Shown one piece after another: positions 44,046-51,556 of a stretch of 64,000 bases of DNA. Below the pieces are notes generated by a model that was given only the letters and a program-made list of their open reading frames with translations, was not told where the DNA came from and did not search any database. The translations under genes and the position numbers were made by a program. The stretch comes from Hyalangium ruber (GTDB lineage: Bacteria > Myxococcota > Myxococcia > Myxococcales > Myxococcaceae). Each line of letters begins with the position of its first letter. The stretch's first letter is position 1. The stretch lies in the NCBI RefSeq assembly GCF_034259325.1, contig NZ_JAXIVS010000016.1, positions 62,001 through 126,000 on the forward strand. The letters are read 5' to 3'.

Positions 44046-45098
44046 ATGCCAGTCGATTCGACTCCGGCGGCCCGTTACGTGGAGCACATCGTCCCCTTCC
44101 AGGCAGGGGACGGCCGCCCGCTCAACCTCGTCCACATCCAGGGGCACCGGGAGCCGACCAAAGGACCGGTCGTCCTGGTCCATGGGGCGGGGGTCCGCGC
44201 CAACATCTTCCGTGCGCCCGTGAAGCAGACGGTCGTCGATGCCCTGCTCGAGGCCGGCTACGACGTGTGGCTGGAGAACTGGCGCGCGAGCATCGACCTC
44301 GAACCCAACGAGTGGACGCTCGACCAGGCAGCCGTCCACGACCACCCGAAGGCCATCCAGAAGATCGTCCAGGAGACGGGGCGGGACGAGGTGAAGGCCA
44401 TCGTCCACTGCCAGGGCTCGACGAGCTTCATGCTCTCGGCGGTGGCGGGGCTCGTGCCACAGGTGAAGGTCATCCTCAGCAATGCCGTCGCCCTGCACCC
44501 GAGGGTGCCGCGCTCGGCCCAGCTCAAGGCGCGCTACGCCGTGCCGCTCGTGGCGAGGATGACGCACTACTTGGATCCGCAGTGGGGCCTCGAGGCGAAG
44601 GGCTTCACCCCCAAGGCCATCACCCTGCTGGTGAAGGCCACCCACCACGAGTGCGACAACACGGTATGCCGGCTGGCGAGCTTCACCTACGGCACGGGGT
44701 TCCCGACGCTCTGGCGGCACGAGAACCTCAACCCCGAAACGCACGAGTGGCTGAAGCACGAGCTGGCCAAGGTGCCCCTCACCTTCTTCCAGCAGATGGC
44801 CGAGTGCCTGCGCGCGGGCCACCTGGTCCCCGTGGAGGGCTACCGGGAGCTGCCCGAGGACGTGTCCGAGCGCCCGCCGGAGACGGACGCGCGCTTCATC
44901 TTCCTCGCGGGGGAGCTCAACCAGTGCTTCCTGGCGGAGAGCCAGCGCCGCACCTATGAGCATCTGTCGCGCTACCGGCCCGGCTACCACGCGCTGCATG
45001 TGATTCCCGAGTACGGACACCTCGACATCTTCATGGGCAAGGACGCCGCCCGGGATGTCTTCCCCCTCATCGTCTCCGAGCTGGACAAGCCGGTCTGA
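44046..45098 (+). CDS. alpha/beta hydrolase with cysteine nucleophile, first gene of the GMC cluster
   Basis: A 350-residue alpha/beta-hydrolase fold. The ATG at 44046 is chosen because GAGGAG precedes it; the frame is open upstream. The oxyanion region is VVLVHGAGVRANIF and the nucleophile elbow is IVHCQGSTSF, with Cys122 where most lipases have Ser, as in PHA synthases (GxCxG). The general-base His is in IPEYGHLDIFMG. The acid position (FLAGELNQCF) has no clear Asp. It is the first of five packed genes (gap to the next: 12 bp). In other bacteria, similar hydrolase domains occur fused or next to cholesterol-oxidase-like GMC proteins, so lipid ester or thioester chemistry is likely. Confidence 0.88.
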   Translation: MPVDSTPAARYVEHIVPFQAGDGRPLNLVHIQGHREPTKGPVVLVHGAGVRANIFRAPVKQTVVDALLEAGYDVWLENWRASIDLEPNEWTLDQAAVHDHPKAIQKIVQETGRDEVKAIVHCQGSTSFMLSAVAGLVPQVKVILSNAVALHPRVPRSAQLKARYAVPLVARMTHYLDPQWGLEAKGFTPKAITLLVKATHHECDNTVCRLASFTYGTGFPTLWRHENLNPETHEWLKHELAKVPLTFFQQMAECLRAGHLVPVEGYRELPEDVSERPPETDARFIFLAGELNQCFLAESQRRTYEHLSRYRPGYHALHVIPEYGHLDIFMGKDAARDVFPLIVSELDKPV

Positions 45099-45110: not shown

Positions 45111-46043
45111 ATGTGGATGATGCCCAGACGAATCAAGCGGCAGCAGGGACGCTACTCGAAGGTGGATGGCATTCCCTACGAGCTCCCCATCAACTCCCAG
45201 GCGTCCCCCGCGCTGATGGCGGCGTTCACCATCGACGCGCGAAAGGCCGCCGCGCTGCTGCCCGGCAACGAGGTGCATCCGCTGCGGCTGTGGGGCAACA
45301 AGGGCGTGCTGTTCGTCACCGTCATCGACTACCGCACCACCGACATCGGGCCCTACATCGAGTTCAGCATCGCCATCGCCTGCACCCATGGGCCCAAGTC
45401 CGCGCCGCCGCTGCTGCCAGTCCTCTTCCAGAAGCACTACGGGCTGGGCCAGTACGTGGTGGACCTGCCGGTGAGCACGGAGATCTCCGTGAAGGGCGGC
45501 AAGGGCATCTGGGGCATGCCCAAGCACCAGGCCAACCTGGACTTCCAAATCACGGAGCGCACGGTCAGCAGCCAGTACGACAAGGACGGCCAGCTCGCGG
45601 TGCGCATCGAGATCGACAAACCCCGGCGCTCGTGGCTGCCCATACGCGCCAGCGGTGCCAACTACTGCCAGTTCCGCGGGATGCTGATGAAGTCCTTCAT
45701 CTACTTCCGCGGGAAGTTCGGCTTCATCCTCGGGCGCAAGGCCAAGGCCCGGCTGACGTTGGGACAGCACCCACGCGCGCAGCCGCTCAAGTCGCTGGGC
45801 ATCGCCTCCAAGCCGTTCTTCGTGGGCTTCCTCCCAGCCTCCAGCGGCGTGCTGGACGACCACTTCGAGTGCTGGTTCCTCAGCTACCCCGAGCTGCCCG
45901 CCACGCAGCCCGAGGGCCTGGAGAGCGTGGTGGACCTCGGCCTGAGCCAGCAGTGGCTATCGCCCCCCGGTGAGGAGCCGAGCCAGCCCGAGCCCCGTCG
46001 GCTCGACAGCGGCGCGGACCTCGGAATGGGGCTGCACTCATGA
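45111..46043 (+). CDS. acetoacetate-decarboxylase-fold protein
   Basis: A 310-residue protein with AGGAG before its ATG. It has the ADC-family motif around IWGMPKHQANLDF; Lys138 matches the Schiff-base lysine of clostridial acetoacetate decarboxylase, but the following lysine, which tunes its pKa, is His139. It also keeps GIPYELPINSQASPALMAAF at the start and a long beta region. The change suggests a related reaction (aldol, retro-aldol or decarboxylation of a larger keto acid) rather than acetone formation. Second gene of the cluster; 34 bp precede the patatin gene. Confidence 0.85.
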   Translation: MWMMPRRIKRQQGRYSKVDGIPYELPINSQASPALMAAFTIDARKAAALLPGNEVHPLRLWGNKGVLFVTVIDYRTTDIGPYIEFSIAIACTHGPKSAPPLLPVLFQKHYGLGQYVVDLPVSTEISVKGGKGIWGMPKHQANLDFQITERTVSSQYDKDGQLAVRIEIDKPRRSWLPIRASGANYCQFRGMLMKSFIYFRGKFGFILGRKAKARLTLGQHPRAQPLKSLGIASKPFFVGFLPASSGVLDDHFECWFLSYPELPATQPEGLESVVDLGLSQQWLSPPGEEPSQPEPRRLDSGADLGMGLHS

Positions 46044-46077
46044 AGCGCCCGCTCCTTCCGCGGGTGGAGGCGCGGTC

Positions 46078-48084
46078 ATGAGCGTCCGAACCGAGCGGTG
46101 GCTGCGATGGCTGCTGATGGCCATCTCCGCGGCCACGGTGGTGAGCGGCGCCGTGCAGCTCATCGCTCCGGGCTTCGTCCTCGGGTTCCTCTCCGCCGAG
46201 TCGAGTCCGGCGAGCCGCCACTTCTTCGGCATCGTCGGCATGTTCATGGTCCTCTTTGGAGGACTGCTGTTCCATGCGCTGGTGCGCCGGAAGGAGAACC
46301 CCGCCGCCTTCGTGTGGGCCGGCCTGCAGAAGCTCGGCGCGAGCGTGGCGGTGGGCCTGGGCGTGGCCCGAGACCTCTTCTCTCCGCTCGCCCTCGGGGT
46401 CGCGGGGTTCGACCTCGTCTCCGGGTTGTTGATCCTCGGCTACTTCAGCCTCTCGCGCCGCCCCGCGCGACAGGCCGTGTCTCCGCCTCTCAAATCCGCC
46501 CCCGTGGTGCGCCTCTCCCCAGAGCCACGCCCTGTGGCTCCCCCGCTGGCGGCGGACGGGCGGCGCAGGGCCCTCATCCTCGCGGGCGGGGGAATGCGCG
46601 TGGCGTGGCAGGCCGGCGCCATCCGCGCCCTCTCGGACGCGGGCCTCACCTTCGCTCATGGCGATGGCACCTCGGGTGGCATCATCAACCTGGCCATGAT
46701 GCTCTCCGGCCAATCGCCCGAGCAGATGTGCGAGCGCTGGCAGACGCTGCGCGTGAAGGACTTCGTCTCCTTCGTCTCGCCTGAGAAGTACCTGAAGGCG
46801 TGGGACATGGAGGCGCTCGGGGACGCGGACGGCATCATCGAGCGTGTCTTCCCGCACCTGGGCATCGACGTGGACGCCATCCGCGCCAACACCGAGATGG
46901 AGGGCACCTTCAACGTCTGCAACTTCGCGCGCAAGACGAACGAGGTCATCCCCCACACCCAGGTGGACCAGGACCTGCTCGTCGCCGGCATCTCCCTGCC
47001 CATCTTCATGCCCATCGTGCGCAAGGGCGCGGCGCTGTACACCGACTCGGTCTGGATCCAGGACGCCAACCTGCTCGAGGCGGTGCGACGCGGGGCGGAC
47101 GAGTTGTGGGTGCTGTGGTGCATCGGCAACACGCCCACCTATGAGCGCGGGGTGTTCCGCCAGTACGTCCACATGATCGAGCTGAGCGCGAATGGCGCGC
47201 TCTTCGCGCAGCTCGAGCGCATCGAGGAGATCAACGCGCGCATCCGCGCGGGCGAGGAGGTCCACGGCCACCGCCAGCCCATCGTGGTCCACCTCGTCAA
47301 ACCCGAGCAGCCCCTGCCGCTCGACCCGGACTTCTACGCGGGCCACATCACCGCGGGCTCGCTCATCGACATGGGGTACGCGGACGCCTGCCGCTACCTC
47401 TCTACCCGCAGCACACAAGGCCTACCGCTCACACCGGAGATAACTCAGATGACCGCATCCGCACCCGACCTCACCTTCCGCGAGACCATGTCCGGTCCCC
47501 TGGCACTCGGCGAGCAAGACCCGCTCTCCGGTGCGGGCAAGGGACGCCACACGCCCTTCACCTTCCACGCCACCATCAGCGTGGATGACATGGAGGCGTT
47601 CATCCGCGACCCCGAGCACGCGGCCCGGCTCGTGGCCCACATCTCCTATCCCCCGCTCGGGGACTTCCTGCCCGTGAAGCGGGGGAGCTTCAACCTGTTC
47701 AAGGCGGGCGACGACCCGAACACCCGGCTGATGACCTACGGCATGGCCTTCGAGCACCAGGGCCGCGAGTACTATCTGTCGGGCACCAAGACCATCCGCG
47801 ACGAGAAGGGGCCGGACCTCTGGCACGACACCACCCGGCTCTACTGCCGGCTCCATGAGGGCACCGATGAGCGAGGCCCGGTGGTGGGCGCGGGCATCCT
47901 CAAGCTGGGCATGGGAGATCTCCTCAAGCTGGTGTCCAGCATGCGCTCTTCTCGCGAGGGCACCGAGGGACTCAAGGCGGTCGCCCAGTTCGGCCAGTTC
48001 TTCCTCGGCACCCTCTGGGACGTCTACATGCCGCTCGCCAAGGAGAAGGCCGCCTCGGAGAGCGAACCGAGTGCCCCCCTCTGA
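46078..48084 (+). CDS. membrane patatin fused to a GMC-associated domain
   Basis: A 668-residue fusion from the ATG at 46078 (GGTGGAGG upstream). Residues 1-130 hold about four membrane segments (LRWLLMAISAATVVSGAVQL, IVGMFMVLFGGLLFHALV). Residues 160-430 are a patatin-like phospholipase: oxyanion GGGMRVAWQAG, nucleophile GTSGG with Ser199, and the catalytic Asp323 in LYTDSVWIQDA, where the usual DGG is DSV. Residues 458-668 (TFHATISVDDMEAFIRDPEH, LPVKRGSFNLFKAGDDPN, AVAQFGQFFLGTLWDVYMPL) form a domain otherwise found at the C-terminus of cholesterol-oxidase-like GMC proteins. Met458 has its own ribosome site. Probably a membrane acyl hydrolase feeding the GMC enzyme encoded 17 bp downstream. 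Confidence 0.87.
   Translation: MSVRTERWLRWLLMAISAATVVSGAVQLIAPGFVLGFLSAESSPASRHFFGIVGMFMVLFGGLLFHALVRRKENPAAFVWAGLQKLGASVAVGLGVARDLFSPLALGVAGFDLVSGLLILGYFSLSRRPARQAVSPPLKSAPVVRLSPEPRPVAPPLAADGRRRALILAGGGMRVAWQAGAIRALSDAGLTFAHGDGTSGGIINLAMMLSGQSPEQMCERWQTLRVKDFVSFVSPEKYLKAWDMEALGDADGIIERVFPHLGIDVDAIRANTEMEGTFNVCNFARKTNEVIPHTQVDQDLLVAGISLPIFMPIVRKGAALYTDSVWIQDANLLEAVRRGADELWVLWCIGNTPTYERGVFRQYVHMIELSANGALFAQLERIEEINARIRAGEEVHGHRQPIVVHLVKPEQPLPLDPDFYAGHITAGSLIDMGYADACRYLSTRSTQGLPLTPEITQMTASAPDLTFRETMSGPLALGEQDPLSGAGKGRHTPFTFHATISVDDMEAFIRDPEHAARLVAHISYPPLGDFLPVKRGSFNLFKAGDDPNTRLMTYGMAFEHQGREYYLSGTKTIRDEKGPDLWHDTTRLYCRLHEGTDERGPVVGAGILKLGMGDLLKLVSSMRSSREGTEGLKAVAQFGQFFLGTLWDVYMPLAKEKAASESEPSAPL
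47436..47451 (+). promoter_or_regulatory. internal ribosome site and ATG in the patatin fusion
   Basis: GGAGA lies eight bases before an in-frame ATG at 47449 (Met458), exactly at the junction between the patatin part and the C-terminal domain. It could produce the 211-residue domain as a separate protein, or be a relic of a former gene boundary. Confidence 0.5.
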
Positions 48085-48101: not shown

Positions 48102-49862
48102 ATGCGACGCGAACACTTCGATGTCATCATCGTCGGCTCGGGCTTCGGAGGCTCGGTCATGGCCTACCGCCTGGCCGAGGCGGGCCTGCGTGTCTGCGTC
48201 CTGGAACGCGGCAAGGCCTGGCCGCCCGGCTCCTTCCCGCGCAGCCCCTACGGCATGCGTCGCAACTTCTGGGACCCCAGCGAGGGCCTGCACGGGCTCT
48301 TCAACCTGTGGTCCTTCCGAGGGCTGGGCGGCGTGGTGGCGAGCGGGCTGGGCGGCGGCTCGCTCATCTACGCCAACGTGCTGCTGCGCAAGGAGGAGAA
48401 GACCTTCGTCCGGGAGAACCTTCACGACGGCGGCTATGAGTACTGGCCCGTCACCCGCGCGGACCTGGAGCCCCACTACGACTCCGTCGAGAAGATGATG
48501 GGGGCGCAGCGCTACCCCTTCGAGCACGCGCCCTACCGCGACACCGCGAAGACGATCGCGATGAAGCTGGCCGCCGAGCGCATGGGGCACCCGGACGACT
48601 GGCAATTGCCCCCGCTGGCGGTGACCTTCGGCAACCCGGGCCAGACTCCCGTGCCGGGGGACCCCATCCCGGAGGCCCACCCGAACCTGCATGGGCGGGC
48701 GCGCAGCACCTGCCGGCTGTGTGGGGAGTGCGACATCGGCTGCAACTTCGGAAGCAAGAACACGCTCGACTACACATACCTGTCGGCCGCGAAGCGCCTG
48801 GGCGCGGAGATTCGCACCCGGGCCGAGGTGAAGGCCTTCTGGCCCGAGGATGGCGAGTACGTCGTGGAGTACGTGGACCACTCGGAGGCGCGCGAGGGCG
48901 AGCGGCCCGAGGTGCCCTCCGCGATGCTGCCGCGCACGGTGCTCTCCGCGGACCGGCTCGTGCTCGCGGCGGGGACCTTCGGAACGAGCTACCTGCTGCT
49001 GAAGAACCGGGATGCGTTCCCGGGCCTCAGCGAGCAGTTGGGCACGCGCTTCTGTGGCAACGGAGACCTGCTGGGCTTCCTCTACAAATGCACGGACGGC
49101 AGCAAGACTCCACGCGAGCCGCGCGTCCTGGATGGAGGCCATGGGCCCGTCATCACCAGCGCCCTCCACGTCCGGGACGCGACCGAGGGCGGCTCGGGTC
49201 GCGGCTATTACGTCGAGGATGCCGGCTACCCGGAGTTCTTCAACTGGCTCTACGAGGGCAGCAACCAGTTCGCCGTGGCGCGCCGCGCCCTGCGGCTCGG
49301 CCAGCGGCTCTTGAAGGGGTGGTTGCGCCTGTCGCGTGACAGCGACGTCAGCGCGGAGATCGCCGAGATGATGGGCGACTGCGTGGGCTCGTCCAGCTCG
49401 CTGCCGCTGCTCGCCATGGGCCGCGACATCCCGGACGGGCGGATGCGGCTGACCCGGGATGGGATGCTGGACGTGGACTGGCGCATGAAGCGCTCCTCCA
49501 GCTACTTCCGGCGCGTCCGCGAGACCATGGAGGAGATCGCCGACGCGCTCGGGGGGAAGATGGTGCATAACCCGCTCAGCGCGCTCAGCCGCGTCATCAC
49601 CGTACACCCGCTCGGGGGCTGCCCCATGGGCCGTACCGCCTCCGAGGGCGTGGTGGACGCCAACGGCGAGGTCTTCAACCACCCGGGCCTCTACGTGGCG
49701 GACGGTGCGGTGATGCCGGGGCCCACGGGCCCCAATCCGAGCCTCACCATCGCCGCGCTGGCCGACCGCTTCGCCGAGCACATCATCGAGCGCTCCCGCC
49801 GGCCCGGCGCTCCACAGCCCAGCACCCAGGAGGCGCCGCCATGGCCTCGAGCACACACGTAA
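48102..49862 (+). CDS. GMC-family oxidoreductase (cholesterol-oxidase-like)
   Basis: A 586-residue FAD enzyme. The FAD motif GSGFGG is at residues 12-17, the second FAD contact is GGVVASGLGGGSLIYANVLL, and the C-terminal active site has His502 in VHPLGGCPMG and Asn545 in GPNPSLTIAAL, the His-Asn pair that cholesterol oxidase uses. It also has CRLCGECDIGC (Cys204, 207, 210, 214), a CX2CX2CX3C motif that could bind an iron-sulfur cluster and is shared by this GMC subgroup. There is no signal peptide. It likely oxidises a sterol, hopanoid or other lipid alcohol. Fourth gene of the cluster; its end overlaps the next gene by 22 bp. Confidence 0.92.
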   Translation: MRREHFDVIIVGSGFGGSVMAYRLAEAGLRVCVLERGKAWPPGSFPRSPYGMRRNFWDPSEGLHGLFNLWSFRGLGGVVASGLGGGSLIYANVLLRKEEKTFVRENLHDGGYEYWPVTRADLEPHYDSVEKMMGAQRYPFEHAPYRDTAKTIAMKLAAERMGHPDDWQLPPLAVTFGNPGQTPVPGDPIPEAHPNLHGRARSTCRLCGECDIGCNFGSKNTLDYTYLSAAKRLGAEIRTRAEVKAFWPEDGEYVVEYVDHSEAREGERPEVPSAMLPRTVLSADRLVLAAGTFGTSYLLLKNRDAFPGLSEQLGTRFCGNGDLLGFLYKCTDGSKTPREPRVLDGGHGPVITSALHVRDATEGGSGRGYYVEDAGYPEFFNWLYEGSNQFAVARRALRLGQRLLKGWLRLSRDSDVSAEIAEMMGDCVGSSSSLPLLAMGRDIPDGRMRLTRDGMLDVDWRMKRSSSYFRRVRETMEEIADALGGKMVHNPLSALSRVITVHPLGGCPMGRTASEGVVDANGEVFNHPGLYVADGAVMPGPTGPNPSLTIAALADRFAEHIIERSRRPGAPQPSTQEAPPWPRAHT

Positions 49863-51556
49863 TCACCAGTCCCGCGCCCTCCCCTGCGACTCCGCCGCAG
49901 CGTCCACCGGGACGGAGGATGGTGCGCTGGTTCGACCCGCTCATCCTGGCGCGAACGGGGGTGCGCTCCGTCATCTCCGCCACCATCGGCAAGCAGGCGG
50001 ATCGCCGACTGCTGGACGCGCTGGCGGCGCCCAAGGTGGAGCCCAGCGACTTCTCGGTCGATGCGGCGGGCAACCCCCGGCAGGAACTCTGGCTCGACTA
50101 CGTGTCGGACCTGGGCGATGGCTGGGACTCCACGTACGCGGTGGCTCACACGGTGGCCAGGCCCTCGCTGACGGTACAGGACGAGACAGGCAAGACCTAC
50201 GACACGCACGGTGGCGAGCTGCTCGTGTTCGGCGGAGACGCCGTTTACCCGGATGCGAGCGTAAAGGAATACGAGGAGCGGACCATTCAGCCTTGGGCTT
50301 CGGCGATGCGCGGGCAACGCCCCCGGCCTCACCTCTTCGCCATCCCCGGCAACCACGACTGGTACGACGGACTGGTCTCCTTCATCCGCCTGTTCTGCCA
50401 GGAGCGCGCGCTGGGGGGCTGGACCACGCACCAGCGACGCAGCTACTTCGCGGTGAAGCTGCCCCATGGGTGGTGGCTGATCGGCACGGACATGCAGCTC
50501 GAGTCGGATCTCGACGACCCCCAGGTCCAATACTTCCAGGAGGTCGCCAAGCTGATGAACAAGGATGACCGCGTCATCCTCTGCCTCGCGGAGCCCGCCT
50601 GGCTGCGCGCCCAGGTCCGTACGCCCGCGATCCGGTTACACCAGGAGAACAACCTCGACTTCCTCCAGCACCAGGTGCTCGGCAAGAAGGTCAGCGTCTT
50701 CCTGGCGGGAGATCTCCACCACTACCGGCGCCACGCCAACGACGCGGGGCAACAGAAGATCATCGCGGGAGGAGGCGGCGCCTTCCTGCACCCGACGCAT
50801 GCGCCCCGAAAGCAGCGGCCACTTCCCGAGGGCTTCACCGCGCGCAAGTGCTTCCCGAGCGCCACGGAGTCCCGGCGGCTGTGCTGGCACAACCTCGCGT
50901 TCCTGAAGCACAACCCTCGCTTCGGGATGCTCACCGGGCTGCTCTACATGCTGCTGGCCTGGGCGCTCTCGACGAACATCGGCGCCTCCACCGCGCCCAA
51001 GGCGCTCTCGCTGGTGGTGAGCACGGCGCTGGGCTCACCGGGCGTCGTCATCATCGCGCTGCTGATCATCCTCGGGCTGATCGGCTTCGCGGATGCGCGG
51101 TTTGGCCGCTTGCGCCCGGTGGTGGGAGTGCTCCACGGCCTCGTCCACCTGCTAGCGGTGTTCCTGATCGCCTGGGGCGTGTCCTACCTCGTGGGCCCGG
51201 TCCTCGACCTGCCCTTCCGAAGCCTGCAGCGGGATCTGGTCAGCGCCGCGCTCATCTTCCTCGGAGGGCTGGTGGTGGGACCGACCCTCATGGGCCTGTA
51301 CCTGCTCATCTCCCTCAACGTCTTCAGCGCCCACGCCAACGAGGCCTTCGGCTCCCTGTCCATCCCGGACTGGAAGAACTTCGTTCGGATGCGGATCGAC
51401 AAGAACGGGCGCCTGTGGCTCTTCCCCATCGGCATCCGGCGAGTGCCTCGGTCCTGGAAGCCCGGCAGCACGGTCCGCGAGCCGGAGTGGGTGCCGGACC
51501 CGGCGGACAAGCGCGCCACGCCTCCCGCGCTCATCGAGCCTCCCATCATCGTCTGA
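49841..51556 (+). CDS. membrane metallophosphoesterase
   Basis: A 571-residue protein starting at an ATG inside the end of the GMC gene, with GGAGG upstream. The first 300 residues are a calcineurin-type phosphoesterase: LLVFGGDAVYPD, AIPGNHDWYDG, and LAGDLHHYRRHA, with the first metal site possibly in SDLGDGWDST. Residues 355-500 hold four to five membrane segments (LLYMLLAWALSTNIG, VVIIALLIILGLIGFAD, LVVGPTLMGLYLLIS), followed by a soluble C-terminal part (DKNGRLWLFPIGIRRVPRSW). It may remove phosphate from a lipid or prenyl phosphate used in the cluster; that role is inferred from the overlap. A hairpin follows. Confidence 0.88.
   Translation: MASSTHVITSPAPSPATPPQRPPGRRMVRWFDPLILARTGVRSVISATIGKQADRRLLDALAAPKVEPSDFSVDAAGNPRQELWLDYVSDLGDGWDSTYAVAHTVARPSLTVQDETGKTYDTHGGELLVFGGDAVYPDASVKEYEERTIQPWASAMRGQRPRPHLFAIPGNHDWYDGLVSFIRLFCQERALGGWTTHQRRSYFAVKLPHGWWLIGTDMQLESDLDDPQVQYFQEVAKLMNKDDRVILCLAEPAWLRAQVRTPAIRLHQENNLDFLQHQVLGKKVSVFLAGDLHHYRRHANDAGQQKIIAGGGGAFLHPTHAPRKQRPLPEGFTARKCFPSATESRRLCWHNLAFLKHNPRFGMLTGLLYMLLAWALSTNIGASTAPKALSLVVSTALGSPGVVIIALLIILGLIGFADARFGRLRPVVGVLHGLVHLLAVFLIAWGVSYLVGPVLDLPFRSLQRDLVSAALIFLGGLVVGPTLMGLYLLISLNVFSAHANEAFGSLSIPDWKNFVRMRIDKNGRLWLFPIGIRRVPRSWKPGSTVREPEWVPDPADKRATPPALIEPPIIV

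Follow-up and report, generated by a model that had tools for sequence, protein, structure and literature searches.

Does the gene at 46078..48084 (+ strand) of the window, i.e. the 64,000-nucleotide stretch of the Hyalangium ruber genome analysed here, encode one protein or two? The genome has a size of 10.8 Mb and belongs to a family (f1) whose named members are Myxococcaceae. The full-length open frame is intact, with a stop-free translation of 668 aa, and joins a membrane patatin to a C-terminal domain associated with GMC oxidoreductases (hereafter Cdom; the fusion is written patatin::Cdom). Its ATG is preceded by GGTGGAGGCGCGGTC. At the junction of the two parts lies an in-frame ATG (47449..47451, + strand; Met458), which is preceded by CCGGAGATAACTCAG; the core of a Shine–Dalgarno (SD) sequence, GGAG (47436..47439, + strand), stands nine bases before this ATG, or eight if read as GGAGA. 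This is exactly as the sequence-only reading had described it, and two outcomes had been proposed from it: a recent fusion of two genes, or a single gene with two products, one full-length and one short.

The gene lies in an operon of five same-direction genes, all on the + strand. These encode (i) an alpha/beta hydrolase (ABH; operon gene 1, 44046..45098; Pfam Abhydrolase_1, 29 bits), (ii) an acetoacetate-decarboxylase-like protein (ADC; 45111..46043; Pfam ADC, 60 bits), (iii) patatin::Cdom, (iv) a cholesterol-oxidase-like GMC oxidoreductase (48102..49862; Pfam GMC_oxred_C and GMC_oxred_N) and (v) a calcineurin-like metallophosphoesterase (MPE; 49841..51556; Pfam Metallophos, 25.6 bits). The order is conserved in relatives for both ABH and ADC, and a metallophosphoesterase is a neighbour in Hyphomicrobium too. 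The nearest solved structures to the GMC protein are cholesterol oxidases (E 1e-21), and its sequence carries a cysteine cluster (CRLCGECDIGC). A 13-codon open reading frame (46040..46081, + strand) overlaps both the ADC stop and the patatin start. Compared by eye, its two ends match both ends of a small membrane-protein gene of a relative (L077, 5400–6010), and it is likely to be the scar of an internal deletion in this gene, which lies between ADC and patatin in relatives.

The N-terminal membrane domain (46078..46455, + strand) has predicted helices at residues 3–29, 44–69, 75–97 and 105–126 (AlphaFold model m84e7f9e3752d, mean pLDDT 58). It is followed by the patatin domain (46552..47418, + strand), for which Pfam Patatin (PF01734) matches residues 166–327 with 60.9 bits against a cut-off of 27.7, and the best Foldseek match is the patatin PlpD (E 6e-6). 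The domain resembles the PlpD (5fya) patatin-like phospholipases in this fold match, in a serine within GTSGG (Ser199) and in a catalytic-type aspartate (Asp323), but the window protein has DSV in place of DGG/DGA and, unlike them, carries a membrane domain at its N-terminus and Cdom at its C-terminus. The replacement of DGG by DSV had been pointed out from the sequence, and is confirmed: the motif at D323 is invariant in the 24 fusions that occupy the same operon (copy A, described below), as is GTSGG (24/24). In ten paralogous fusions (copy B), the serine is invariant within a GTSSG consensus and the aligned, likewise invariant aspartate stands in a DSL consensus; in a distant fusion (G151) the motif is DAV. 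A degenerate patatin can be ruled out since the catalytic serine and aspartate are kept in all 24 copy A and 10 copy B fusions. Judged from these alignments, DSV is a trait that this subfamily of patatins maintains, and not a sign of decay.

The C-terminal part, Cdom (47449..48084, + strand; 211 aa), is the part that is also predicted as a free protein. These 211 residues of the window protein have no Pfam or NCBIfam family match, and a weak match to DUF7162 (E 0.019) appears in one of 15 Cdom members. The AlphaFold model of Cdom is barrel-like, with eight strands and C-terminal helices (pLDDT 88; the Cdom part of the full-length model is unreliable). Foldseek returned nothing for it at E ≤ 0.001, the best match being LmcA (E 0.015, TM ~0.3). 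Matches from a second structure aligner (Z up to 9.8) to assorted beta-barrels, including annelid haemoglobin linker chains, were set aside as a common arrangement only, and the best hit of a sequence search against solved structures (E 0.023) was discarded. With no convincing structural match, the role of Cdom has to be deduced solely from gene order and from the fusions in which it occurs. Among 22 distant Cdom loci, 19 have the domain in frame behind a GMC oxidoreductase (12 GMC::Cdom and 7 GMC::Cdom::ABH), while two loci encode Cdom::ABH and one has neither partner. This bears out the earlier claim that the last 211 residues represent a domain that is typical of the C-terminal end of cholesterol-oxidase-like proteins. 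The cholesterol-oxidase-like GMC::Cdom and GMC::Cdom::ABH proteins of Hyphomicrobium and myxobacteria thus share with the window the same Cdom and the same partner families, and the Hyphomicrobium loci also have a second GMC gene and a metallophosphoesterase nearby; by contrast, GMC, ABH and Cdom are encoded separately from one another in the window, where Cdom is joined to patatin instead. When the patatin and ADC fusions are added, Cdom is found joined to four enzymes that co-occur in this operon. From its fusions and gene order we infer that Cdom may act in a single lipid-oxidising pathway, as a module for docking or for the handling of substrates.

We searched a sample of 96 genomes of the family, in which the patatin::Cdom fusion was found in two settings. 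Copy A (24 loci: the window, L031 and L077–L098) occurs in 24 genomes of four genus groups and always in the same operon, ABH–ADC–patatin::Cdom–GMC, usually accompanied by MPE; in the retrieved stretch of the five copy A loci from the Myxococcus/Pyxidicoccus group, no MPE gene was detected. Copy B consists of the ten paralogous fusions, all from the Myxococcus/Pyxidicoccus genus group and all without the window-type N-terminal domain. MPE follows the fusion in 7/10 of them, and a GMC gene was not detected near any of the ten within the retrieved stretch (up to 14 kb). A further copy-A-type fusion, with CCGGAGATCACGCAA before the ATG, is found in a record labelled Polyangium sp. y55x31 (L124). 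The whole operon is present there, with 65–86% protein identity to the window, through either horizontal transfer or mislabelling of the genome. Another family of the order contains the distant patatin::Cdom of G151 (L174; 513-codon open frame), which shares 38–40% identity with most copy A proteins along the entire fusion. It has the same two-domain order as the window protein and is followed by a GMC gene, but differs in its DAV motif and in the lack of an N-terminal membrane domain, and no internal start codon was seen at its junction. The earlier suggestion that the fusion is recent is therefore not borne out, because the fusion is spread over 24 genomes and the Polyangium-labelled record, also exists as a clade of paralogous fusions and has a distant version in G151. 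Both this distribution and the trees reject it, and support the view that patatin::Cdom is an old fusion.

Relatives in which the two parts are separate do exist, and in most of them the patatin seems to have been lost later. A standalone Cdom occurs in G014, G076 (Corallococcus sicarius), G111 and G113 (Myxococcus xanthus AM003), as well as in the g12 and g8 genus groups (four g12 genomes and three Archangium-group genomes). In G029 (L032, 8585–10171), ADC runs in frame into Cdom, and the resulting ADC::Cdom fusion also contains the internal ATG. In G014, the sister of G029, a TAA immediately precedes the ATG, and the leader has diverged but still contains GGAG. In the trees of both Cdom and GMC, G029/G014 and G076 group among fused relatives. 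For the g12 group this holds in the GMC tree only, where support is moderate; the position of G111/G113 is likewise only moderately supported. We read this as several patatin losses from a fused ancestor, with Archangium as an unfused outgroup, in trees whose root position the Cdom tree by itself leaves undecided. The ATG equivalent to 47449 is kept in three patatin-less lineages (G029/G014, G076 and G111/G113), and a CTCAC...GGAGAT leader is recognizable by eye in G029, G076, G111 and G113; the Cdoms of g12 and Archangium have different beginnings. A separate observation concerns Corallococcus terminator, in which Cdom is cut after about residue 69 at two loci of the same record (L109 and L138) and is followed directly by a GMC match from about residue 40, in an open frame of 1226 codons. 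This could reflect either a genuine deletion or an error of the draft assembly.

The standalone Cdom of the Archangium outgroup implies that a start existed before the fusion. The gene could thus be an ordinary fusion that yields the 668-aa product only, in which the ATG, the SD sequence and the start-like codons are a relic of a formerly separate Cdom gene; for eukaryotes, it has been argued that unusual codons at the ends of genes arise non-adaptively (PMC11249729). Conservation at the junction in copy A does not fit this explanation well. The ATG (Met458), CCG at Pro(−5) and GAG at Glu(−4) are all invariant in 24/24 loci, but synonymous sites have turned over elsewhere, with one codon kept in only 12 of the 94 fourfold columns that have an invariant residue. 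Two of 14 invariant-Pro columns are codon-fixed, and position −5 is the only one fixed as CCG; position −4 is the only codon-fixed column among six with invariant Glu. Met458 also stands alone among 14 internal Met columns in combining Met with an SD-like motif in 24/24 loci. A start signature of this kind thus persists across genera on a background of synonymous turnover.

Codon usage downstream of the ATG points in the same direction. The excess of A/T-ending codons reaches z 11.9 at Met458, compared with −2.4 to 4.5 at the other internal Met columns, and GC3 of codons +1..+7 is 0.70 against 0.94 gene-wide, being lower only in windows that overlap +1..+7. Over codons +1..+8 there are 50 A/T-ending codons where 11.4 are expected from each gene's own codon usage, and 0 of 2000 synonymous resamplings reach 50; the 24 sequences are related, so these counts are not independent, and the resampling controls for codon usage and residues, not for ancestry. 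At true starts of the same loci the counts are 46 against 15.7 expected (GMC), 61 against 14.1 (ABH) and 43 against 12.7 (ADC), and at the fusion gene's own upstream start 22 against 16.6. Codon +2 ends in A/T in 22/24 loci while its residue varies between Glu, Ala and Thr, and this retention of A/T despite residue change is also at odds with a relic. In addition, the signature is gone in copy B, a paralogous clade of the same fusion. We therefore consider it unlikely that the signature is a mere remnant of a separate gene.

Predicted mRNA folding in the 60 nt around ATG 47449 has a mean of −6.2 kcal/mol, the weakest of 87 windows. When residues are kept and codons resampled, −10.7 is expected, and 0 of 200 resamplings reach the observed value. 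The low folding comes partly from amino-acid composition, because copy B is also weakly folded there. Around the upstream start (46078) the mean is −25.4, which would favour the internal start, though expression levels cannot be read from folding alone.

Copy B provides a natural control for these signals. The ATG position is ACC in 10/10 copy B loci, in which the same linker is present. CCG (6/10) and GAG (8/10) are no longer fixed, GGAG is intact by eye in 4/10, there are 5 A/T-ending codons where 7.5 are expected, and folding does not depart from what the residues predict (55/200). That the linker can occur without these two signals is evidence that the protein sequence does not require the copy A signal; the contrast represents one clade and perhaps one event. 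This bears directly on another possible explanation, i.e. that the junction is a peptide linker (LPLTPEITQM) under amino-acid selection and that its SD resemblance is coincidental. Conservation of LPLxPE as a protein sequence in both copy A and copy B is consistent with it, but this explanation does not account for why CCG and GAG are fixed among synonymous codons, for the A/T-ending excess or for folding that is weak beyond the residue content. Furthermore, Met is replaced by Thr in copy B although the linker is retained there, some of the leader is still present in lineages that have no preceding patatin, and the leader in M. xanthus-type loci appears, by eye, to be one base out of frame. 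A linker under protein-level selection is thus a very improbable source of the signal. The short form could alternatively arise from proteolysis at the junction instead of internal initiation, given that the linker connects a membrane enzyme to a separate domain; cleavage, however, is not expected to select synonymous codons, an SD sequence or open mRNA, and we give this possibility very little credence.

Based on these comparisons, it is very likely that the internal start has been retained by selection in this lineage. The gene would probably have two starts: (i) initiation at 46078 would yield the 668-aa membrane-anchored protein, a predicted patatin lipid hydrolase with Cdom as its C-terminal tail; and (ii) initiation at 47449, through the SD sequence at 47436–47439 and an mRNA stretch kept unstructured, would yield a free 211-aa Cdom. 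The membrane form would supply Cdom to the patatin and the free form to the adjoining GMC oxidase. Supply of free Cdom to this oxidase is a plausible purpose of the internal start. The two outcomes first proposed for this gene have thus fared differently: two products are strongly supported by the comparative evidence, while a recent fusion is not. In G151, no ATG, GTG or TTG occurs among the codons read from the junction up to the conserved EFTEEM motif. A GMC gene follows this fusion, and hence not every fusion next to GMC needs an internal start. More tentatively, Cdom may roam, becoming attached in different lineages to GMC, ABH, patatin or ADC; the internal start would then serve to supply GMC, and the GMC-less duplicate would have lost it.

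A comparable gene design is known for Cas11, which is produced from internal starts inside cas8 or cas10 in type I-B, I-C and I-D CRISPR-Cas systems, and the internal start in an archaeal cas8b was shown by mutating the Met codon (PMC11899642). In both cases one gene with an in-frame internal ATG gives a full-length protein and its C-terminal part as a separate subunit (predicted for patatin::Cdom), but the Cas11 start is experimentally demonstrated, whereas the evidence here is comparative and concerns an enzyme operon unrelated to CRISPR. Other CRISPR-Cas systems encode the small subunit as a separate gene. Our literature search found no paper that combines four of the subjects patatin, GMC, oxidoreductase, acetoacetate decarboxylase and Myxococcus, and otherwise returned general background only.

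Internal starts are usually detected by ribosome profiling in a few model bacteria. The putative internal start of patatin::Cdom was read from evolution alone, with a paralogous clade that has no such start as a natural control, and would exemplify a kind of product that is missed by annotation. This analysis also marks out the unnamed Cdom as a common attachment of a little-studied pathway that may link GMC, ABH, patatin and ADC enzymes in myxobacteria and Hyphomicrobium.
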